Below, in pieces: positions 46,929 through 63,017 of a stretch of 64,000 bases of DNA. Each line of letters starts with the position of its first letter. Position 1 is the stretch's first letter. A program made the translations under genes and the position numbers. Source of the DNA: Hippea maritima DSM 10411 (GTDB lineage: Bacteria > Campylobacterota_A > Desulfurellia > Desulfurellales > Hippeaceae); NCBI RefSeq assembly GCF_000194135.1, contig NC_015318.1, positions 1,192,501 through 1,256,500 of the forward strand, in the 5' to 3' direction. Under the pieces are notes generated by a model that was not told the origin of the DNA, did not search any database, and saw only the letters and a program-made list of their open reading frames with translations.

Positions 46929-47005
46929 TGGTGGGCCCACCAGGACTCGAACCTGGGACCAACCGGTTATGAGCCGGTGGCTCTAGCCAACTGAGCTATG
47001 GGCCC
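46929..47005 (-). tRNA. tRNA with CAU anticodon (Ile2 with lysidine, or elongator Met)
   Basis: A 77-nt cloverleaf including an encoded 3' CCA. The acceptor stem pairs GGGCCCA with TGGGCCC, and the D arm is GCTCAGTTGGCTAGAGC. The anticodon stem-loop is ACCGG-CTCATAA-CCGGT with anticodon CAT, and the T loop is TTCGAGT. The CGG/CCG anticodon stem and the discriminator A resemble tRNA-Ile2 (CAU read as AUA after lysidine modification), but elongator Met cannot be excluded. It is not an initiator type, because it lacks the three G-C pairs of that anticodon stem. Confidence 0.93.
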
Positions 47006-47027: not shown

Positions 47028-47055
47028 ACTATACAAATTATGAAGCTTTTGTCAA
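47028..47055 (-). promoter_or_regulatory. Promoter of the CAU tRNA
   Basis: On the minus strand a perfect TTGACA and TATAGT are separated by 16 bp, about 22 bp upstream of the tRNA 5' end. The IS481-like copy A has its target duplication starting 5 bp upstream of the -35 box. Confidence 0.75.
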
Positions 47056-47060
47056 CCAAA

Positions 47061-47073
47061 ATCTTAGCATTAT
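47061..47073. repeat. Thirteen-bp target duplication of IS481-like copy A
   Basis: ATCTTAGCATTAT lies directly before the left end and is repeated at 52346-52358 directly after the right end. A preceding A is also shared. This shows that the outer element went in once, and that everything between is later nesting. Confidence 0.92.
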
Positions 47074-47125
47074 ACCAGATAGGTCCAAACATACTTACCA
47101 CCTAAAGCAAATAGAGGTAATATCT

Positions 47126-47362
47126 ATGTCTGAGAATGAGAATGATAGAAAAGAGAGTGGAGGCACCAACATGGAAGTGAAGAGAATAAGAAAGATAGTA
47201 GGGGCAGAAAACCTGAAAGTAGGTTTTCTGCCCGTTAAATCTTTCTCTTTCTCAAGGGCTGATGCAGCCCACATCCTCTTTTGCATATTCAAATCACTGG
47301 ATTTGAATATAATAGGAAGACCCATAAAACTCCTAAAGGGATGGAGGCTGCATCATGGATAG
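47126..47362 (+). CDS. Small leader ORF of IS481-like copy A
   Basis: This 78-codon frame is identical to those at 54211 and 63018. It has an AGAGGT ribosome binding site and overlaps the transposase start by 8 bp. The predicted basic peptide is not recognised. The nucleotide sequence is dominated by inverted repeats, so its coding sequence may mainly serve to move ribosomes through a structured leader. See the entry for copy B. Confidence 0.5.
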   Translation: MSENENDRKESGGTNMEVKRIRKIVGAENLKVGFLPVKSFSFSRADAAHILFCIFKSLDLNIIGRPIKLLKGWRLHHG

Positions 47363-47699
47363 TATATACCACACTTTGAGAAAATCAAACCCTGCAAGTG
47401 CAAGAATTTTGGTCAGAAAGGTTTTAGAGAAAAACAACGGCAATGTCTCAAAAACAGCAAGAATACTTGGCATATCAAGGGCTACAGTGAGAAGGGCAAG
47501 GGATGGAGAACTAAATGACTTATCAAGAAGACCAAAGAACATAAGAAAAAAGATAGACTGTTCTCTTGAAAAACTCATTGTTGATGTTAAAGCTACAATA
47601 AACTCCCCACCAAAAGGGCTTATAAATTCCCCACCCTTTTGGTAGCATGCCCTAATCTTTTTAAAAGATGGAGGGTAAATAAAATTGTTGGGGGTTTGT

Positions 47700-49179
47700 A
47701 TGTATTACTCGGTAAAAGCACTACTGAGTATTGGGAAAAATGTCTCACAGATTGCAAGAGAGCTAAAGATTGACAGGAAAACAGTCAGAAAGATTAAGAA
47801 AAAGGTAGAAAACGGAGAGATTAAGACACCCACCATCAAAAGGAAAAGCATCCTTGATCCATACAAGGATGAAATCATGGAGTATTTAAAAAGTGGTCTC
47901 TCCGCTGTTTTAATCCACCAGAAGTTAAAAGAAAAGCATAGTCTAAATGTAAGCTATAGCTCTGTGAAACGCTACATCAGGAAGCTAAAGCCAGGTGAGC
48001 CCTTCATCCCCTTAATAAGCCCACCTGGCCAAGAAGCCCAAGTAGATTTCGGCTATGCCGGTTATTTCTAATAATAGCAGAAGAAAAAAGAAAGTAAAGT
48101 ACTGGATATTCTCAATGGTTTTGTCCTATTCGAGGTACAGATACTATGAGCTTGTGGATAACCAAAGTATACCGACATTCATAAACTGCCATATCAATGC
48201 ATTTGAATATTTCTCTGGTGCACCAAAGGCTATAAAGATAGACAACCTAAAAAGCGGTGTATTGCATGTTAACTTCTATGAGCCTGAAATTCAGCATGAA
48301 TATGCAAGGATGCTTGAGTATTACAACTCCTCTGCTGTTGCCTGTAGGGTGAGAAAACCAAATGAGAAGGGCAAGGTAGAATCCAGCATAAAATACATAA
48401 AGAACAACTTTCTAAAAAGCATAAGAGCGGAAGGAATAGAAGACATAGACACAGTCAAAGAGAAGCTTTTATTCTGGCAGGACAACATCTGTAATGCAAA
48501 GCTACACGGCACAACAAGAAAAATACCGAAGGATGAGTTTCTCAATGTAGAAAAGGAAAAACTCAACAGATTGCCAGATAGAAGATATGAGACCTACGAT
48601 ATTGCAAAAAGAACTGTAAACACCTACTCCCACATCTATTACAGGTACAACTACTACTCTGTGCCTGAAAAATACATATCAGAAAAGCTCAATATTAGGT
48701 CAAATGGAAAGATAATGGAGATCTATGATTCATCGTTCAACTTAATAGCCACACATGAGCTTTCTCAATCAAAGGGTGAGTTCATAACAAAGGAAAGCCA
48801 TAAACCCAAGATGAAGAAAAATCCCACAGATTCAGAATACACCACCATGACGCTTGATATAGGTGAAAGCGCCTACCTGTTCTATAAAAGGCTAAGAAAA
48901 GAGAAACCTGCCTCATATCACAGGGTAATGAGAGGTGTAATGTCTCTTTCAAAGGGATACCCCAAAGAGACAATGGAGCTTGCATTCAAAAGGGCAATTG
49001 ATTTCAACTGCATAAGCTATTCCTCTTTAAAAAGCATACTGAAGAATGAGCTCTACAACATTCCCTACGACAAACCAGACTCACCCATAGCCTTAGGTTT
49101 TTATAACCCACTAAGAGCTTACGATGAAATGACAGATATAAAAGCAGATATGAAAACAGACATTATGAGTGGTGAGTGA
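47700..49179 (+). pseudogene. istA: IS21 transposase IstA, split by a frameshift
   Basis: The first frame (to a TAA at 48069-48071) gives the helix-turn-helix region (SQIARELKIDRKTVRKIKKK) and the first catalytic Asp in GQEAQVDFGYAG. The second frame, offset by +1, is open from about 48055 to 49179 and continues the same protein with SMVLSYSRYRYYE, the second Asp in IKIDNLKSG, and the Glu in EKGKVESSIKYIK. The joint is TTC TAA T, so skipping one base restores the whole protein. Either a mutation or a frameshift site is possible. The ATG at 47700 follows GGGGG; a TTG five codons earlier is an alternative. Confidence 0.88.
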
Positions 49180-49180
49180 A

Positions 49181-50017
49181 ATGAAAGGGGTGGAAAATGT
49201 AAAAGATATGAAAAACATAGAAAGAAGACTAAAGGAGTTTAAACTCTCTGGCATTGCAAAGACACTTGAGGCAAGGAACAGGTATGCCATTGATAATAAT
49301 CTGACATACATAGACTTCTTAAAACTCCTATTAGAGGATGAATACATAAACAGGCAGAGCAACTCATTTAGAAAAAGACTTACAAAATCAAAGCTTGACA
49401 CAACAAAGACTTTAGATAGCTATGATTTCACATACCAACCAAAGCTAAACAAGAAAGAACTCTTAGACATTGCATCCTGCAGGTTCATAGAGGAGAAGAA
49501 AAACATCATATTCATGGGCAATCCTGGAGTTGGTAAAACCCACCTTGCAAATGCGATAGGATTAGAGGCCCTAAAACAGGGATATAAGGTCTTGTTCATC
49601 CATACCAACGATTTAATCCTAAAGCTCATATCTGCAAGGGGAGATGGAACCTACACCTCAATACTGAACCAGATTCTATCATCTGACCTTCTGATAATAG
49701 ATGAAGTAGGCTTTAAAAAGATCCCATCCAACTATGTGGATGAGTTCTTTGAGGTGATAAGGAGAAGATATGAAAAGGGTTCAATTATAATCACCACTAA
49801 TAGACCATTTGAGGAGTGGGCTAATATATTTTCAGATGCCGTTTTGGCCTCTGCCATAGTTGATAGACTTGTCCATCACTGCCATATATTCAAGATAACA
49901 GGTGAGAGCTATAGAATTAAACACCTAAAGGAGGCAAAAGATAATCAAAACAGTTTAACCCCCCTTTCCGCACCCAAACCTCTATTTTATTTGACCAAAC
50001 CCAAATGCACAGAGTAA
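49181..50017 (+). CDS. istB: IS21 helper ATPase IstB, C-terminus altered by insertion
   Basis: An AAA+ helper with Walker A GNPGVGKTHLANAIG near residue 110 and Walker B LLIIDEVGFKK near 170. IstB selects target DNA and activates IstA. The ATG at 49181 follows the istA stop by 1 bp. The IS1634-type element entered at the last two codons: the original end was probably ...NSLN-stop (completed by AATTAA after the element), and the present frame runs about 19 codons into the invader. The ATPase core is intact. Confidence 0.88.
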   Translation: MKGVENVKDMKNIERRLKEFKLSGIAKTLEARNRYAIDNNLTYIDFLKLLLEDEYINRQSNSFRKRLTKSKLDTTKTLDSYDFTYQPKLNKKELLDIASCRFIEEKKNIIFMGNPGVGKTHLANAIGLEALKQGYKVLFIHTNDLILKLISARGDGTYTSILNQILSSDLLIIDEVGFKKIPSNYVDEFFEVIRRRYEKGSIIITTNRPFEEWANIFSDAVLASAIVDRLVHHCHIFKITGESYRIKHLKEAKDNQNSLTPLSAPKPLFYLTKPKCTE

Positions 50018-51842
50018 AAGAATGAAAAGGGTCTTAGAATAAACGGAACAGAAAATGCTTACATCTCCCTCTAAAAAGAGGGGGTATTTAAATGTTACAA
50101 CAAAAAGCAGTTATCAAGAACATGGATCACTTAGGACTAATAGCTGGTATGATAGACGAACTAAAGATAGCAGAAACCATAGATGATGAAATACCATCAT
50201 CAAGCAAATCAAAGAACCTAAGCTATGGCGAAGCAACAAAGGCAATGATCCTTAACGGTCTTGGTTATGTCAACAAGCAACTCTACCTAACTCCTCTCTT
50301 CTTCAAAGACAAACCACTAAAGAGATTATTCGGAAGGGATGTTGACTTCCCTTGGTTCAACGATGATGCACTTGGTAGAACATTAGATAAGCTCTTTGAA
50401 TACGGCGTAAGTGAACTGTATGAAAAGATAGCAAGCAGGGCACTCAAAATACTGAACCTTACACCCTCTACCATACACTTAGACAGCACAAGCTTTCATC
50501 TTGACGGTAAGTATCCAAACCAAAAGACGAAAGAAGAAAAAGAAAAAGAAAAAGGAAAAGTAAAAGAAAGAAATGGAAAAGAAGAAAAGGGAAATAACAG
50601 TGAAGGAAAATGGGGAAAAGGAGGAAAAGAAGAAGAGTATGAGCCAACCCCAGTCTTTATCACCCAGGGATACAGCAGAGACCACCATCCAGAGCTCAAT
50701 CAGGTGGTTTTAAATCTTATAGTAGAACACAAAGCAGGCATTCCCATATGGATGAAGCCTGCAGATGGTAATAAAATAGATACACAGGCATTTGCCAATA
50801 TAGTAAAGGAGCATATTAACTCTTTAAAGAATGCTAATAATACAAAGACAAAGGTGATAGCCGATGCAGCCCTCTTTAGTTCTAAAACAATGGAAGAGTT
50901 TAAGAAAAACAACATGCTTTTCATCTCAAGGGTTCCATCGAAACTAAAACAGGCAAAAGAGATACTCAAAAACCACAATGAAGAGGAATTTATTCAGCTT
51001 GATGAGAACTATCAGGCTATCCAGTACACAGTAGATTATGAAGGAATGAAACAACAGTGGGTTTTATACAAAAGCAGTTATGCTAAATCAAGAGGGGACA
51101 AAACGATAAAGAAAGAGTATCAAGAAAAAGAAAAACAGGAAACAAAACTCATTGAGAAATTACAAAAGAGAGCATTTTTCTGTGAAGCTGATGCAAGAAA
51201 AGCATTTGAAGAAAAAACAAAGAAGTTAGAATGCATAATGATATCAGAGGCTAAACTCATATCAAAGCCCAAATACAAAACAAGAGGACGACCAAAACCA
51301 AATGCTAAACCAGACCACTATGAATACTACTGGATTATAGAGACCAAGCCAAATGAAGAATACCTAAAACAAAAACAGAACCAAAAGAGTGGCCTTTTTA
51401 TCCTTGCAACCAATGATATGACACTGTCTGCCAAGGAACTGCTTGATGAGTATAAATCTCAACAGAGAATAGAAAGGGGCTTTAGGTTCTTAAAATCACC
51501 AGAGTTTTTAAGCGATGCCATGTTTCTAAAGAACCCAAAACGCATTGAAGCAATGCTTATGATAATGACACTCTCTTTGCTTGTCTATTCTGCCTTGGAA
51601 TACAGAATAAGAAGTGAGCTTAAAAATCAAAACAAATCCTTTCCCAATCAACTTGGCAAACCCATTCAGAATCCCACTGCAAGATGGGTGTTTGAGAACT
51701 TCTTTGCTATACATCTACTCTTACTTAATGGGCAAGAGCAGATTGTTGGGTTGGAAAACAAGCATAGGCTGATATTGGAACTATTGGGTAGTAATTATAT
51801 GGGGTTTTATGGTATAAATGGAGAAAGAGGTGCGGAATGAGG
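49960..51842 (+). mobile_element. IS1634-type insertion sequence, copy 2 (intact)
   Basis: A 1883-bp element with the same inverted repeats as copy 1. It is inserted at the end of istB. The flanks share TTAA on both sides, but no clean 6-bp duplication is seen. The C run on the left is one base longer, and the G run on the right one shorter, than in copy 1, so the exact ends are uncertain by one or two bases. Confidence 0.9.
50092..51840 (+). CDS. IS1634-family (IS4-like DDE) transposase
   Basis: A 582-residue transposase. The N-terminal DUF4277-like region (1-110) is followed by the DDE core with LDSTSFHLDG (near 130), VIADAALFS (near 255) and the ERGFRFLKSPEFLSDAMFLK block with the Glu (near 480). 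Between the first two Asp residues sits a stretch of about 45 residues rich in Lys, Glu and Gly, an unusual insertion encoded by a near-pure purine tract. The gene is intact and probably active. Confidence 0.95.
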   Translation: MLQQKAVIKNMDHLGLIAGMIDELKIAETIDDEIPSSSKSKNLSYGEATKAMILNGLGYVNKQLYLTPLFFKDKPLKRLFGRDVDFPWFNDDALGRTLDKLFEYGVSELYEKIASRALKILNLTPSTIHLDSTSFHLDGKYPNQKTKEEKEKEKGKVKERNGKEEKGNNSEGKWGKGGKEEEYEPTPVFITQGYSRDHHPELNQVVLNLIVEHKAGIPIWMKPADGNKIDTQAFANIVKEHINSLKNANNTKTKVIADAALFSSKTMEEFKKNNMLFISRVPSKLKQAKEILKNHNEEEFIQLDENYQAIQYTVDYEGMKQQWVLYKSSYAKSRGDKTIKKEYQEKEKQETKLIEKLQKRAFFCEADARKAFEEKTKKLECIMISEAKLISKPKYKTRGRPKPNAKPDHYEYYWIIETKPNEEYLKQKQNQKSGLFILATNDMTLSAKELLDEYKSQQRIERGFRFLKSPEFLSDAMFLKNPKRIEAMLMIMTLSLLVYSALEYRIRSELKNQNKSFPNQLGKPIQNPTARWVFENFFAIHLLLLNGQEQIVGLENKHRLILELLGSNYMGFYGINGERGAE

Positions 51843-52377
51843 GTTAAATTAACAATCCAAGGGGTGGGGAATTTAAATGACCCAAAGGTGGGGAAATTTG
51901 GTTGACTTTAACACTCAAGCAGAAGAAAATTGGATGAATACAACGAATTCTTTTCAAAACTGAATGTAGAGTTAAAACCCATACCACCAGGTGCAAAACA
52001 CCTCCAGGCTATAGTTGAAAACTCACACAGAAAAGACGATGAATCATTTTTCTCCATTCATCCAGAAAGGTGCAGGAATGACGCTGAGTTCTTGCTCAAA
52101 GCTCAACAATGGCAGGATACATGGAATACAGCAAGGCCTCACTATGGCATAGACATGAACGGCCTAACGCCTTTTGAGAAACTGAAATCAACAAAAGCTA
52201 TGATATCTGAAAACATAGTAAGGTTTCCAACCTTACTACTGGAAGATATCATAAGGGTAGCAGGCTACCCTTATGAATGGTTGAGTAAGTTTGTGAACCT
52301 GTATATATTTAGTAGAGGTGGTAAGTATGTGTGGACCACTTACCAATCTTAGCATTATCATCATACCATAAAGAAAG

Positions 52378-52680
52378 CTAAACTCTATTCAATTGGGATT
52401 GTTTATAGTAGATAGCCCTGTGTATCAATGCATCTGTCCTTTCTGGTAAATCGAAATATTCGAAAAATACAGTATAAACATCATCCTCTTTTATGATGTT
52501 GGATATTATAGCAGGAATCACAATTTGATCTTTTAAGGGCTTCATCTTAAGCAGAACGGTATCCCCTATATTCAAACCAACTTCAGGGTTTTCTATTCTT
52601 GCCGTAAGAGACTTTGAACCGAATCTTCTGACCTTTAAGTTTATAACTTGCATTCTCTTCTGCTTTAGATCCTTATCCAC
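52378..52680 (-). CDS. PilZ-like C-terminal segment, probably split off the HD-GYP gene by a frameshift
   Basis: This 100-codon frame starts at GTG with no ribosome binding site. Its sequence (MQVINLKVRRFGSKSLTARI, then LNIGDTVLLKMKPLKDQIVI) looks like a PilZ-type beta barrel. The frame is open upstream of the GTG through the codons for FDAIAIPLKSS, which reads as the natural continuation of the HD-GYP protein. The overlap with the HD-GYP frame and the C3/A5 runs at 52716-52723 suggest one indel. It could also be a real overlapping gene. Arg residues of the canonical RxxxR c-di-GMP motif are not clear. Confidence 0.6.
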   Translation of the reverse strand: MDKDLKQKRMQVINLKVRRFGSKSLTARIENPEVGLNIGDTVLLKMKPLKDQIVIPAIISNIIKEDDVYTVFFEYFDLPERTDALIHRAIYYKQSQLNRV

Positions 52681-54044
52681 AGAAGACTTAAGCGGTATAG
52701 CAATAGCGTCAAATTCCCAAAAACATGCAAACTGCCAAATACCGACTCCCCGGTATCTTTTATAAATATATTTACATAATCTTTGGTCGAAGAAATGACA
52801 CTACCCTTGAAATTAAACATCAAATCAAAGAAAAAGAGTTGAACTCGAACGGTTTTTCCGATTTCTATAGCTTCATTTATGGGTTGATAAAATGCTATAC
52901 CAACTACAGTAGGTGTTATATATTCTATAACACCTTGAACAAGCTTGATGCTCTCACCCTTTTCAAACTCCACCACTATGGGCTTGCCTATATTGCTTAA
53001 GTGATTAATCTTTGAAAATTCAAAATCTCTTTTTATATAATATTTTTCTAAAACCTCCAGAGACGCTTCAGCTATTCTCCTATCAAATGCCTTGCCCCTC
53101 AGTTTTCTTACTATAGAAATAATGCGCCTTATATCGAAGCCCTTCCTATCTGGCCTATCAGTGTATAAACCATCGATAGTTTCGCAAAGAGCAAGAATTT
53201 TTGATTCTACAGGTAGCTCATCACCCTTTATGCCGAAATATCCTCCGCCATCTATCCTTTCATGGTGATAATACGCTATATTTACAATATCCTCCATTAA
53301 AGGATTTCTTGCAAATATCACTTTCAAAAAATATGGGTGCTGTTTCAGTATTTCAACCTCTTCTTCGGTATATGAGCCCTGCTTATAGAATATATCGTTG
53401 GAAATATACATCTCACCAATATCGTGAATAAGTGCCGCATAATTCAACTTTCTTATGGAATTCTTGCTTAAACCAATCTTATCTGCTATAGCAACGGCCA
53501 GATCAGCAACCCTAAATGAATGATAAAATGTCCTTGGTCTCATGTTCTTTGTTATATTCAATGAATTTACAGCAAAATACCTTCTCTCAATATCCTCACT
53601 AATCTCTATATAGAGATCGATCAAAAAGGGTTTTATAGATTGTATTAAGCTTTCTAATACATCTTTAACATCAGTGGGAATATATTCCTTTTTTATCAGA
53701 AATTCACATAATCCAACCTCTTGATACTCAACATATATCTTCTCAATATAAACAGAGGAATCTTCTATGAATTTACCGTATAAAAATGGGTAGTCTGTCT
53801 CTATGCTTCCAGTTGATTCATATCTATCATTTTCTTTGAGTATATCCCTAAAACTCTTACTTACCCTGAGCTGCAAACCCTTAAACTCTTCTAAAAATCC
53901 CTTACCGGATTGATAGATATTTAACAAAAAAACCTGCTCATCATTCAACTTCAATAAAATTGCAAACCTGAATTCCTCATCCTCTATGGTAGAGAGGTAT
54001 GATTTTATCGCATCTTTCAATAATCCTATAGGATTATCTTTCAT
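52665..54044 (-). CDS. HD-GYP-domain protein with a C-terminal YcgR/PilZ-like region, probably frameshifted
   Basis: A 459-residue frame with an N-terminal region of unknown fold (1-160), an HD-GYP domain (165-340) with LIHDIGEMYISND near 205 and HHERIDGGGYFG near 260, and a beta-rich tail (350-440) like the N-terminal part of YcgR-type proteins. The GYP motif reads GYF and the usual HDIGK reads HDIGE, so activity may differ from the canonical enzyme. The last 20 residues (LTLLLYRLSLLWIRI) look like out-of-frame translation. It lies between two IS481-like copies. Confidence 0.82.
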   Translation of the reverse strand: MKDNPIGLLKDAIKSYLSTIEDEEFRFAILLKLNDEQVFLLNIYQSGKGFLEEFKGLQLRVSKSFRDILKENDRYESTGSIETDYPFLYGKFIEDSSVYIEKIYVEYQEVGLCEFLIKKEYIPTDVKDVLESLIQSIKPFLIDLYIEISEDIERRYFAVNSLNITKNMRPRTFYHSFRVADLAVAIADKIGLSKNSIRKLNYAALIHDIGEMYISNDIFYKQGSYTEEEVEILKQHPYFLKVIFARNPLMEDIVNIAYYHHERIDGGGYFGIKGDELPVESKILALCETIDGLYTDRPDRKGFDIRRIISIVRKLRGKAFDRRIAEASLEVLEKYYIKRDFEFSKINHLSNIGKPIVVEFEKGESIKLVQGVIEYITPTVVGIAFYQPINEAIEIGKTVRVQLFFFDLMFNFKGSVISSTKDYVNIFIKDTGESVFGSLHVFGNLTLLLYRLSLLWIRI

Positions 54045-54110: not shown

Positions 54111-54140
54111 AATTTATCCGTCAAAACATACCCCTGTCAA
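54111..54140 (-). promoter_or_regulatory. Promoter of the HD-GYP/PilZ-like gene
   Basis: On the minus strand TTGACA and TAAATT are separated by 18 bp, about 65 bp upstream of the gene. The IS481-like copy B has its target duplication starting 5 bp upstream of the -35 box. The -10 match is moderate. Confidence 0.45.
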
Positions 54141-54145
54141 GCAAA

Positions 54146-54158
54146 ATCGTAATCTACA
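54146..54158. repeat. Thirteen-bp target duplication of IS481-like copy B
   Basis: ATCGTAATCTACA lies directly before the left end and is repeated at 55555-55567. The right-hand copy supplies the stop codons of both the transposase (TAA at 55559) and, on the other strand, the aminopeptidase gene (TAG at 55565-55563). Confidence 0.92.
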
Positions 54159-54210
54159 ACCAGATAGGTCCAAACATACTTACCACCTAAAGCAAATAGA
54201 GGTAATATCT

Positions 54211-54447
54211 ATGTCTGAGAATGAGAATGATAGAAAAGAGAGTGGAGGCACCAACATGGAAGTGAAGAGAATAAGAAAGATAGTAGGGGCAGAAAACCTG
54301 AAAGTAGGTTTTCTGCCCGTTAAATCTTTCTCTTTCTCAAGGGCTGATGCAGCCCACATCCTCTTTTGCATATTCAAATCACTGGATTTGAATATAATAG
54401 GAAGACCCATAAAACTCCTAAAGGGATGGAGGCTGCATCATGGATAG
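54211..54447 (+). CDS. Small leader ORF of IS481-like copy B
   Basis: A 78-codon frame with an AGAGGT ribosome binding site 9 bp before the ATG. The peptide starts MSENENDRKESGGTNMEVKR, then becomes basic and hydrophobic; no known domain is recognised. It overlaps the transposase gene by 8 bp (ATGGATAG), an arrangement used for translational coupling. The same 237 bp contain two perfect hairpins and one arm of a long-range pairing, so the amino-acid sequence may be secondary to the RNA. All three copies in the window appear identical here. Confidence 0.55.
   Translation: MSENENDRKESGGTNMEVKRIRKIVGAENLKVGFLPVKSFSFSRADAAHILFCIFKSLDLNIIGRPIKLLKGWRLHHG
54287..54440 (+). promoter_or_regulatory. 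Structured leader of the IS481-like transposase gene
   Basis: Hairpin 1 (54287-54318) has a perfect 13-bp stem, GGGCAGAAAACCT paired with AGGTTTTCTGCCC. Hairpin 2 (54341-54355) pairs GGGCTG with CAGCCC. Hairpin 3 (54370-54395) has a perfect 11-bp stem, ATATTCAAATC with GATTTGAATAT. In competition with hairpin 2, TGATGCAGCC (54345-54354) can pair over 10 bp with GGCTGCATCA (54431-54440), which includes two bases of the GGAGG ribosome binding site and the A of the transposase ATG. The same sequences occur at 47202-47355 and 63094-63247. Confidence 0.65.
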
Positions 54448-55561
54448 TATATACCACACTTTGAGAAAATCAAACCCTGCAAGTGCAAGAATTTTGGTCA
54501 GAAAGGTTTTAGAGAAAAACAACGGCAATGTCTCAAAAACAGCAAGAATACTTGGCATATCAAGGGCTACAGTGAGAAGGGCAAGGGATGGAGAACTAAA
54601 TGACTTATCAAGAAGACCAAAGAACATAAGAAAAAAGATAGACTGTTCTCTTGAAAAACTCATTGTTGAAGAGGCAAAAAGCACAGGGTACAGATACAGG
54701 CTTCTAAGCTATTACCTAAAGAACAAATACTCCATAGAGATAAGCGAAAACACAATAAAGAAGGTTTTAAAGAGAAACAGGGTGAGGAAAAAGAAAATAA
54801 GGACTCTAAACAAAAACAGAAGGCATCTTTATGATTATGAACACCTGACGCCCTTTAGCCACCTTCAGATAGACACAAAACACATACTGTATGAAACATC
54901 TCTACCAAAGAGCGTGTATAGACACATAGAGAAATACGACCTGCCAAAATATGAATGGAACGCAATAGATGTAAAAACGAGAATGAGATTTACAGCTTAC
55001 TCCCATACTCTTTCTGCATCCTTTGGATTTGCTTTTATCCTTTTTGTCGTACTGTGGTTAAAGCTGCACAATGTAAGGGGAAAAATAAACATAAGGTTGG
55101 ACAACGGTTCTGAATTTGCATCCTCAAGCAGAAGAAAATTGGATGAATACAACGAATTCTTTTCAAAACTGAATGTAGAGTTAAAACCCATACCACCAGG
55201 TGCAAAACACCTCCAGGCTATAGTTGAAAACTCACACAGAAAAGACGATGAATCATTTTTCTCCATTCATCCAGAAAGGTGCAGGAATGACGCTGAGTTC
55301 TTGCTCAAAGCTCAACAATGGCAGGATACATGGAATACAGCAAGACCTCACTATGGCATAGACATGAACGGCCTAACGCCTTTTGAGAAACTGAAATCAA
55401 CAAAAGCTATGATATCTGAAAACATAGTAAGGTTTCCAACCTTACTACTGGAAGATATCATAAGGGTAGCAGGCTACCCTTATGAATGGTTGAGTAAGTT
55501 TGTGAACCTGTATATATTTAGTAGAGGTGGTAAGTATGTGTGGACCACTTACCAATCGTAA
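54440..55561 (+). CDS. IS481-like DDE transposase (copy B)
   Basis: A 373-residue transposase. The N-terminal helix-turn-helix region (about 15-75) contains NNGNVSKTARILGISRATVR. The integrase-type core has its first Asp in HLQIDTKHILYE (near 143), the second in IRLDNGSEFAS (near 221), and the Glu 42 residues later in AIVENSHRKDD. A GGAGG ribosome binding site precedes the ATG but lies within a predicted stem. The last element-encoded residues are WTTYQ; the final Ser and the stop come from the duplicated target, so the C-terminus depends on the insertion site. Confidence 0.93.
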   Translation: MDSIYHTLRKSNPASARILVRKVLEKNNGNVSKTARILGISRATVRRARDGELNDLSRRPKNIRKKIDCSLEKLIVEEAKSTGYRYRLLSYYLKNKYSIEISENTIKKVLKRNRVRKKKIRTLNKNRRHLYDYEHLTPFSHLQIDTKHILYETSLPKSVYRHIEKYDLPKYEWNAIDVKTRMRFTAYSHTLSASFGFAFILFVVLWLKLHNVRGKINIRLDNGSEFASSSRRKLDEYNEFFSKLNVELKPIPPGAKHLQAIVENSHRKDDESFFSIHPERCRNDAEFLLKAQQWQDTWNTARPHYGIDMNGLTPFEKLKSTKAMISENIVRFPTLLLEDIIRVAGYPYEWLSKFVNLYIFSRGGKYVWTTYQS

Positions 55562-55562
55562 T

Positions 55563-56927
55563 CTACATGTGGGTATAACGCCTTATAGACGCACTTAAAA
55601 CAACTGTTTTATCTTTCTTTATGAGAACATCATCCTCCAACCTAACACCACCAAAACCCACCATTTTTTTTAAAGCATCATAGTTAATAAACTCAAAAAA
55701 CTTTTTACCGGTCTCCCATCTTTCAATTAAAGCCTCTATAAAGTAAACACCAGGTTCAATAGTCATAACATAGCCCTCTTTCAATTCTTTTGCAAATCTT
55801 AAAGCAGAAAGACCAAATTTTTTGGAGCGTTTGATTTTGTCATTGTAGCCTACATAATCTTCTCCTAACCCTTCAAGGTCGTGCACATCTAATCCTAAAG
55901 GGTGGCCTACTCCGTGGGGGTAAACAATCGCATAGGCACCACTCTCAACAATACTATCTGTATTGCCTTTAAAAAAACCGAGATTCTTCATGCCCTCTGT
56001 TATAACCCTTACTGATTCAAGATGAACATCCAAAAACCTAACACCCTCTTTGGCTTTGGATATTGCCTTTTTTTGGGCTACATCAACAATGTCGTATATA
56101 TCCTTTTGGATTTGACTCATACTTCCAACAGGTATAGTTCTTGTTATATCGCTTGCATAGTGGAGTTCTGTTTCAACCCCAGAGTCCATTACAACAAGGT
56201 CGCCCTTTCTCAAAACACCGTCATGTCTTGTGTTATGGAGAATATCGCCCCTTTTCGTTAGAATAGTTGGAAAGGCAAGCCAAACACCATTTTCTATTGC
56301 ATACGCCTCAAATTTTGCGAGAAGTTGCCTCTCATAGATTCCCTCATTTATGTTTTCAAAGGCAATATCGTACATACCTTCACTTATATTTATGGCTCGT
56401 TGAATCTGCTCTATTTCTTCGGTTGACTTTTTAAGCCTTTGTCCTGCCACAGCTTTTATAAAATCAATAGAGGCATAATTATTAACAAATACACTATTTA
56501 TACCCAAAAACTTTTCAATTAAAACTTTGTTTCTAAACCTGTATTGGGGTAAAAACATTAATTTTCTTTTATCCTTCAAGATTCTTCTAAAAAAATCATA
56601 CGCCTTATCAAAAGGTTTTAAACAGCAAAGTCCACTCTTTTTCACACAATCATGTAAATTCTCTTTTCTACCCTCCCAAATCAGCTCATCATCACCAACC
56701 TCATTACCAAATATAAATTCATTATCGTTGTCGATATCTATAATGCCGATAAGATTTGGTCTATCTATGCCAAAATAGTAAAGAAAGGAGCTATCTTGCC
56801 TAAATCTATAGGTATTAGCTGGATAGTTAAATGCAGCCTCACCATTACCAAAAAACACCAAAACACCTCTACCTATAGCCTTTTTCAGCATATCCCTCCT
56901 ATGTCTGTAAACCTCTTTATCAAACAT
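55563..56927 (-). CDS. pepP: Xaa-Pro aminopeptidase (M24B family)
   Basis: A 454-residue metallopeptidase that removes N-terminal residues before proline. The creatinase-like N-terminal domain covers about 1-165. The pita-bread domain has its dinuclear metal ligands in VMDSGVETELHYASDITRT (two Asp), HGVGHPLGLDVHD (His), TIEPGVYF (Glu) and GGVRLEDDVLI (Glu). The ATG at 56927 is preferred because a GGAGGGG site lies just upstream; an in-frame ATG 21 codons earlier has none. The stop codon lies within the target duplication of the adjacent IS. Confidence 0.93.
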   Translation of the reverse strand: MFDKEVYRHRRDMLKKAIGRGVLVFFGNGEAAFNYPANTYRFRQDSSFLYYFGIDRPNLIGIIDIDNDNEFIFGNEVGDDELIWEGRKENLHDCVKKSGLCCLKPFDKAYDFFRRILKDKRKLMFLPQYRFRNKVLIEKFLGINSVFVNNYASIDFIKAVAGQRLKKSTEEIEQIQRAINISEGMYDIAFENINEGIYERQLLAKFEAYAIENGVWLAFPTILTKRGDILHNTRHDGVLRKGDLVVMDSGVETELHYASDITRTIPVGSMSQIQKDIYDIVDVAQKKAISKAKEGVRFLDVHLESVRVITEGMKNLGFFKGNTDSIVESGAYAIVYPHGVGHPLGLDVHDLEGLGEDYVGYNDKIKRSKKFGLSALRFAKELKEGYVMTIEPGVYFIEALIERWETGKKFFEFINYDALKKMVGFGGVRLEDDVLIKKDKTVVLSASIRRYTHM

Positions 56928-62593: not shown

Positions 62594-62878
62594 TTATGAT
62601 GCCTGAGCTTGCTTAAATTTTCTGTGAGCTTTTTGATAGAGATTAGAGATTAGCCTTGAGGCTTTGTTTTTGTGTATTATGCCTTTGGAGCAGATTTTTC
62701 TTATTACCTTTTCTGCTTCTTTGAGTTGAGCCTCGACTGTCTCTTTATCGCTCTCTGCCTCTATAAGCATTCTACTCTTTTTAAGGATGTTCTTAAGCCT
62801 TGTTCTATAGGCTTTATTTCTCATATATCTTTTTTTATTCTGCCTTACCCTTTTAATGGCTGACTTGTGGTTCGCCAC
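62594..62878 (-). CDS. rpsT: 30S ribosomal protein S20
   Basis: A 94-residue basic protein with the typical S20 start ANHKSAIKRVRQNKKRYMRN and the C-terminal helix HKNKASRLISNLYQKAHRKF. The GTG at 62878 is chosen because GGAGGGG lies 5 bp before it and because S20 normally begins just before the ANHKSA motif; an ATG nine codons upstream overlaps that site. It is monocistronic, with its own promoter and terminator. Confidence 0.96.
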   Translation of the reverse strand: MANHKSAIKRVRQNKKRYMRNKAYRTRLKNILKKSRMLIEAESDKETVEAQLKEAEKVIRKICSKGIIHKNKASRLISNLYQKAHRKFKQAQAS

Positions 62879-62917
62879 TTGTACCCCTCCTTCTCTTTTT
62901 CTCAAAATGGCTTAGAA

Positions 62918-62946
62918 TTCTTACCATAAAGATTTTTTAAAGTCAA
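62918..62946 (-). promoter_or_regulatory. Promoter of rpsT
   Basis: On the minus strand TTGACT and TAAGAA are separated by 17 bp, about 40 bp before the rpsT start codon. IS481-like copy C begins 19 bp upstream of the -35 box. Confidence 0.55.
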
Positions 62947-63017
62947 TTTTTTAATTCATACATATACCAGATAGGTCCAAACATACTTACCACCTAAAGC
63001 AAATAGAGGTAATATCT

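Follow-up and report, generated by a model that had tools for sequence, protein, structure and literature searches.

IS481-like elements inserted at a fixed position upstream of predicted housekeeping promoters in Hippea maritima and in bacteria of other phyla

Three element copies and their neighbours in the window

The genome of Hippea maritima DSM 10411 consists of one contig of 1,694,430 bp, and the window analysed here is a 64,000-nucleotide stretch of that contig. It contains three copies of an IS481-like element (A, B and C), all on the plus strand. Copy A (47074-52344) has the left end ACCAGATAGG and the right end ..CCACTTACC. Its left end faces the predicted promoter of a minus-strand tRNA-Met(CAU) gene (46929-47005), with the -35 box TTGACA at 47050-47055 and, after a spacer of 16, the -10 box TATAGT at 47028-47033, both on the minus strand. 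The element is flanked by a 14-bp target duplication, AATCTTAGCATTAT (left copy 47060-47073, right copy 52345-52358); the left copy and the -35 box are 4 nt apart. Seven genomes from the genus retain TTGTCAA and a similar -10 region at this tRNA-Met promoter, and the box therefore belongs to the host. In one of these genomes, G003, a 26-bp remnant of a related left end (L165) is preserved about 19 nt from the same promoter box; it could stem from a repeated insertion at this promoter or from an old insertion that both genomes share. Copy A is itself split by an IS21-like element that in turn carries an IS1634-like element (nest at 47584-51911, the innermost element from about 50040), and the istA-like frame of the IS21-like element is broken into ORFs of 128 and 374 codons.

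Copy B (54159-55553) is intact and 1395 bp long. It is flanked by the 14-bp duplication AATCGTAATCTACA (54145-54158 and 55554-55567) and faces a minus-strand TTGACA box at 54135-54140. The gene downstream of this promoter (52665-54044, minus strand) encodes an HD-domain, HD-GYP-like protein, named from a reading of the sequence without a family search. Copy C starts at 62966 and extends beyond the last position of the window (64000), with its right end at genome position 1256860. It faces the box TTGACT (62941-62946, minus strand) in the predicted promoter of a minus-strand rpsT-like gene for ribosomal protein S20 (listed ORF 62594-62905), also named from sequence reading, whose real start likely lies slightly inside the listed ORF. 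Since the sequences on the two sides of copy C (L005/L016) have no target duplication in common, this copy is probably rearranged, and the mismatch suggests recombination between copies.

A sequence-only reading of the window had located plus-strand TGTCAA boxes 18 bp ahead of copies A and B, and an AGTCAA box 19 bp ahead of copy C. These coordinates are correct, and the genes that it placed downstream (a CAU tRNA gene, an HD-GYP gene and rpsT) agree with what is described above.

Insertion register in the host genome and in relatives

A left-end search of the host genome returned 13 junctions, 11 with full and 2 with truncated left ends, while a right-end search returned 11 right ends. As anticipated from the three copies in the window, the ten additional left ends lie at the same offset: either TGTCAA or AGTCAA, the reverse complement of a -35 box, is found outward of 12 of the 13 left ends, and the remaining one (L011) has the weak box ATTCAA at the same place. 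To these junctions we added those of related genomes, a WOR-3 genome and a Nitrospirae genome, giving 27 in all. At least six of seven matches to TTGTCAA were found at exactly 18 or 19 nt from 19 of the 27 left ends, and at 15 nt from one more. The corresponding frequency at random positions was 0.46% in a 400-kb sample of 20 stretches, all from the host genome, whose AT-richness most of the other genomes share without being identical to it. The counts pool copies within genomes, each copy being a separate insertion at a separate locus. The enrichment proposed from three copies thus extends to other genera and phyla, and the left end points towards the promoter at all sites, again as proposed.

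The cut positions can be set without choosing a box, because they are defined by the target duplication wherever both flanks can be compared. Fifteen copies, eight from the host genome and seven from five other genomes, have an intact duplication, and in all of them the near cut is separated from the -35 hexamer by exactly 4 nt on its upstream side; the earlier estimate of 5-6 bp has to be corrected accordingly. All 15 hexamers at this register end in CAA, which is TTG on the promoter strand (TGTCAA in nine, AGTCAA in three, and ATTCAA, AAGCAA and GAGCAA in one each). The start of the duplication is constant and its length varies from 11 to 15 bp, mostly 14-15, indicating a rigidly placed near cut and some freedom in the far one. 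Given these cut positions, and with the hexamer counted as -35 to -30, the duplication spans about -40 to -54 and so corresponds to the UP-element region. The promoter thereby retains both boxes, -35 and -10, together with its native sequence as far as about -54, which upholds the notion of a spared promoter with 18-19 bp upstream of the -35 box intact. One left/right pair (L055) has no target duplication in common and, from its flanks, is probably rearranged. Three relatives whose ends or duplications were not confidently placed (L150, L146 and L149) were excluded from the main counts, L149 being entered solely in a composition table of 39 sites.

Two other elements of the same genome, the IS1634-like element (12 copies) and the IS21-like element (7 copies), showed no box at a constant offset, and five ordinary IS481 elements on plasmids, with one junction each, gave no sign of -35 targeting. 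We consider it practically certain that the element described here targets promoters.

Transposases 56-60% identical to that of the host element are found in WOR-3 (L055), in a Nitrospirae metagenome-assembled genome (L056), in G078 (six matches), in G352 and in G583, and more distant ones in G549, G388, G433, G428 and a Thermovirga plasmid. An identical set was obtained when the search was recentred on a second genome, and a search of viral contigs and phages returned no relatives of the element. The 4-nt register is kept in L109, L116, L117, L056, L144, L145 and L147. In the Thermovirga element, the distance between the presumed left end and a TTGACA-16-TAAAAT promoter is as expected. The spacing departs from the norm in a few relatives, namely L146, where the cut is seemingly directly beside the TTGACT box, L149, which has TTGACT-16-TATAAT close by and no target duplication, and L150. 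That the distant relatives L146 and L149 still adjoin TTGACT promoters at a different spacing could show evolution of the register. Internally deleted copies with retained ends occur in G010 (L069) and in the host (L009), and these are perhaps mobilised by full copies.

Promoters of tRNA genes account for four of the 13 host targets (tRNA-Leu, a Thr-Tyr-Gly-Thr cluster, tRNA-Met and a Lys-His cluster), and a Gln-Glu tRNA cluster is a target in G010. Protein-gene targets, named from sequence reading, include rpsT, tatA-like, hisF-like and dksA/traR-like genes. A scripted search for genes broken by insertion returned three long open frames spanning junctions, and these were rejected on inspection. 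The frame at L004 starts upstream of a gene that itself begins past the junction, nothing marks the 100-codon frame at L002 as a gene, and of the two frames at L009 one is antisense to a TatA-like gene while the other is the frame of that gene extended upstream.

The transposase, its family and its leader

The transposase gene of copy B (54440-55561, plus strand) encodes a 373-aa IS481-like DDE protein with an rve/rve_3 core, an N-terminal HTH and the putative catalytic residues D145, D221 and E263, which are invariant in the alignment. The label IS481-like, given in the sequence-only reading, stands in so far as IS481 is the best curated match, and falls short in that the score lies below the curated cut-off: against profile NF033577 (IS481) the transposase reached 103.5 bits, the cut-off being 224. 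Five relatives scored 83-154 bits, and ISEc18, ISVch1 and a Piscirickettsia element 256-268. An rve-type DDE/RNase H-like core is present (rve_3, E=4e-5; rve, E=0.006, both below the Pfam cut-offs), and Foldseek with a model of the transposase (pLDDT 77) found resemblance to IstA and to retroviral integrases. No RNA-polymerase-binding or other extra docking domain was recognised in this model, whose last 20-30 residues are of low confidence and unreliable. Pfam and NCBIfam yielded no Mutator-family match, the matches being to IS481 and rve instead.

In a tree of 11 promoter-type and 7 ordinary IS481 sequences, the two sets are split by a branch with support of 100/100. Judged by their sequences, the promoter-targeting transposases thus form a group separate from ordinary IS481; the tree is midpoint-rooted, and a sister group would look the same in it as a deep branch inside the IS481 family. 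TGT ends are a general feature of IS481, and we saw them in ISEc18 and ISVch1. The element shares with IS481 the rve core and the N-terminal HTH, but it differs in its ends (ACCAGATAGG../..CCACTTACC, not TGT), in a long leader ahead of the transposase and in its -35 targeting. Its target duplications measure 11-15 bp, whereas those of IS481 range from 2 to 15 bp and are mostly 6 bp (PMC10045372).

The leader of copy B contains a small ORF (54211-54447, plus strand), the stop of which overlaps the transposase start (ATGGATAG). No family match was obtained for it. Several relatives share its C-terminal part, about 33 aa long (..ILxIxKKLG..W.R..PL.GWR..), and this recurrence may be partly due to the arms of a hairpin rather than to the protein. 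The hairpin in question is a predicted RNA structure (54345-54440, plus strand; z = -4.9) that covers the ribosome-binding site and start codon of the transposase. A comparable leader hairpin is predicted in L055, L056, L109, L144 and L107, with z from -3.2 to -6.6 over the six elements; all are single-sequence folds, the MAFFT alignment of the leaders being too gappy for a covariation count. Such a hairpin may silence transcripts that enter the element from outside.

Choice of target and comparison with known systems

What is recognised at the target sites? All promoters considered here are predictions from sequence. A perfect TTGACA is present at 21 of 35 junctions, and 20 of the 35 have a -10 box matching at 5/6 or better at a spacer of 16-18; the corresponding frequencies at random intergenic positions are 0.2% and 4.1%. 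When spacers of 15-19 were permitted, the mean -10 match was 4.7/6 at 27 sites, whereas random positions averaged 3.1 and ordinary TTGACAA sites 3.2. Fourteen sites scored with a non-consensus -35 box, three of them out of register owing to a shorter spacing. Nine of the 14 have a -10 box of at least 5/6, a quality reached by 4.4% of intergenic positions whose -35 score is comparable. At three weak sites, where the register was set by the duplication alone, the -10 boxes are almost perfect and the promoters read TTGAAT-17-TATAAT, TTGCTT-16-TAAAAT and TTGCTC-18-TATAAT. Because well-spaced -10 boxes are enriched even where the -35 box is weak, it appears that entire promoters are chosen, beyond TTGACA. 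The fixed site, the uniform orientation and geometry, their recurrence in relatives of several phyla and the whole predicted promoters are all observed features of these insertions.

Another explanation would be that the transposase itself reads -35-like DNA, that is TTG plus ACA with some tolerance, and that only intergenic insertions survive, with RNA polymerase playing no role. Sequence preferences are common among transposases. The composition of the 39 sites, with TT invariant in the first two positions of the box, G in 95% in the third and C favoured just upstream, would agree with this, and every weak box retains TTG or TTT. Combined with a loss of insertions in genes, direct reading also explains the consensus sites nearly as well: the 400-kb host sample contains 202 TTGACA hexamers, of which just 18 stand in intergenic DNA in front of a gene; these 18 resemble the targets of the element, and 18 of the 23 intergenic hexamers are promoter-like. 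However, contact with the box alone should ignore bases about 20-25 nt further downstream, and the -10 boxes at weak -35 sites are too good for that, including the three whose register is set by the duplication. We therefore regard direct reading as unlikely, if a serious contender.

It could also be argued that AT-rich, bent or readily melted DNA is preferred, and that promoters merely have such DNA, given that the flanks are AT-rich and the duplication spans the UP-element region. The register nevertheless tracks TTG exactly, not AT content. The duplication of L144, CTTCTTGCCCCCGCC, is GC-rich and has the same 4-nt register, and the two other IS elements, resident in the same AT-rich genome, sit at different sites, so a role of DNA shape alone is highly improbable. 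Finally, selection among random insertions, with copies upstream of promoters as survivors and those within genes disappearing, is refuted by the fixed register, since it cannot give a one-orientation position exact to 1 bp, kept at 4 nt in every duplicated copy from different phyla, and since copies of other IS elements have survived in this genome at positions with no such relation.

The fixed near cut, at about -39/-40, coincides with the upstream border of sigma region 4, and the alpha C-terminal domains bind the region that is duplicated here. The position of the near cut, together with the enrichment of -10 boxes, favours docking on the holoenzyme over direct reading of TTGACA. We therefore propose that the IS481-like DDE transposase inserts into promoters of the housekeeping sigma (sigma-70 type), with the left end towards the promoter. 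The transposase, or a complex containing it, would dock on promoter-bound RNA polymerase holoenzyme, and docking would direct strand transfer to the upstream border of sigma region 4, a place bound by the alpha C-terminal domains. In the observed geometry, one strand-transfer point is exactly 4 nt from the -35 hexamer on its upstream side, and the second is 11-15 nt (mostly 14-15) further out. We hold this account as a whole, including the docking on RNA polymerase, to be quite probable. The likely benefit for the element is a safe intergenic landing site with little harm to the host.

The resulting pattern recalls that of the yeast elements Ty1 and Ty3, which integrate upstream of transcribed genes, often tRNA genes, via the transcription machinery. 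Ty elements are retrotransposons that use RNA polymerase III factors, whereas the element described here is a DDE transposon. Among bacterial elements, the ISAjo2 group of the IS1202 family, known as dif hunters, inserts in one orientation 5 bp from XerC at dif (PMC10132070). Both are DDE elements that lack an additional targeting protein and insert in a fixed orientation, at a constant distance from a site bound by a protein, presumably RNA polymerase in the present case; the sites here are promoters with -35 and -10 boxes, not dif/XerC. IS1202 transposases measure 394-507 aa and have Q seventh after the catalytic E, and for the long-duplication group of that family no target was found (PMC10132070). 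The transposase described here differs in its length of 373 aa and in having D270, invariant in a 10-sequence alignment, seventh after the putative E, and the ends of the element are not TGT..ACA.

The closest precedent is the Mutator superfamily, in which TnGBS, ISLre2 and ISKra4 elements make oriented insertions 13-17 bp upstream of sigma-A promoters, TnGBS-related ISs forming p-MULT 3, mostly with one orientation, and the ISKra4 group p-MULT 4; the authors read this behaviour as limiting the cost to the host (PMC3942029). Mutator-type elements such as TnGBS and ISKra4 and the element described here thus have in common an oriented insertion at a constant distance upstream of the -35 box. In contrast, Mutator-type elements lie 13-17 bp from the -35 box with the right end by the promoter, and the IS481-like element 18-19 bp from it with the left end by the promoter, and the transposases are unrelated in family. 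The sequence-only reading had taken promoter targeting to be absent from established IS481 knowledge, and in the literature searched, which included few subscription journals, there was indeed no report of it for IS481-like elements; as a strategy it has the Mutator-type precedent (PMC3942029), the sole one found. Promoter targeting by bacterial transposons therefore extends beyond the Mutator type to an unrelated DDE family, in which it was kept over large evolutionary distances. Somewhat less firmly than for the account as a whole, we lean towards the view that the clade of IS481-like transposases of the retroviral-integrase type from Hippea, WOR-3, Nitrospirota and Synergistota is led to promoters by docking on promoter-bound RNA polymerase, cuts 4 nt upstream of the -35 box and evolved this trait independently of the Mutator-type elements. 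With a register exact to one base, it is a simple system in which guidance of transposition by the transcription machinery can be tested, and its insertion points flag likely active promoters in little-studied bacteria.
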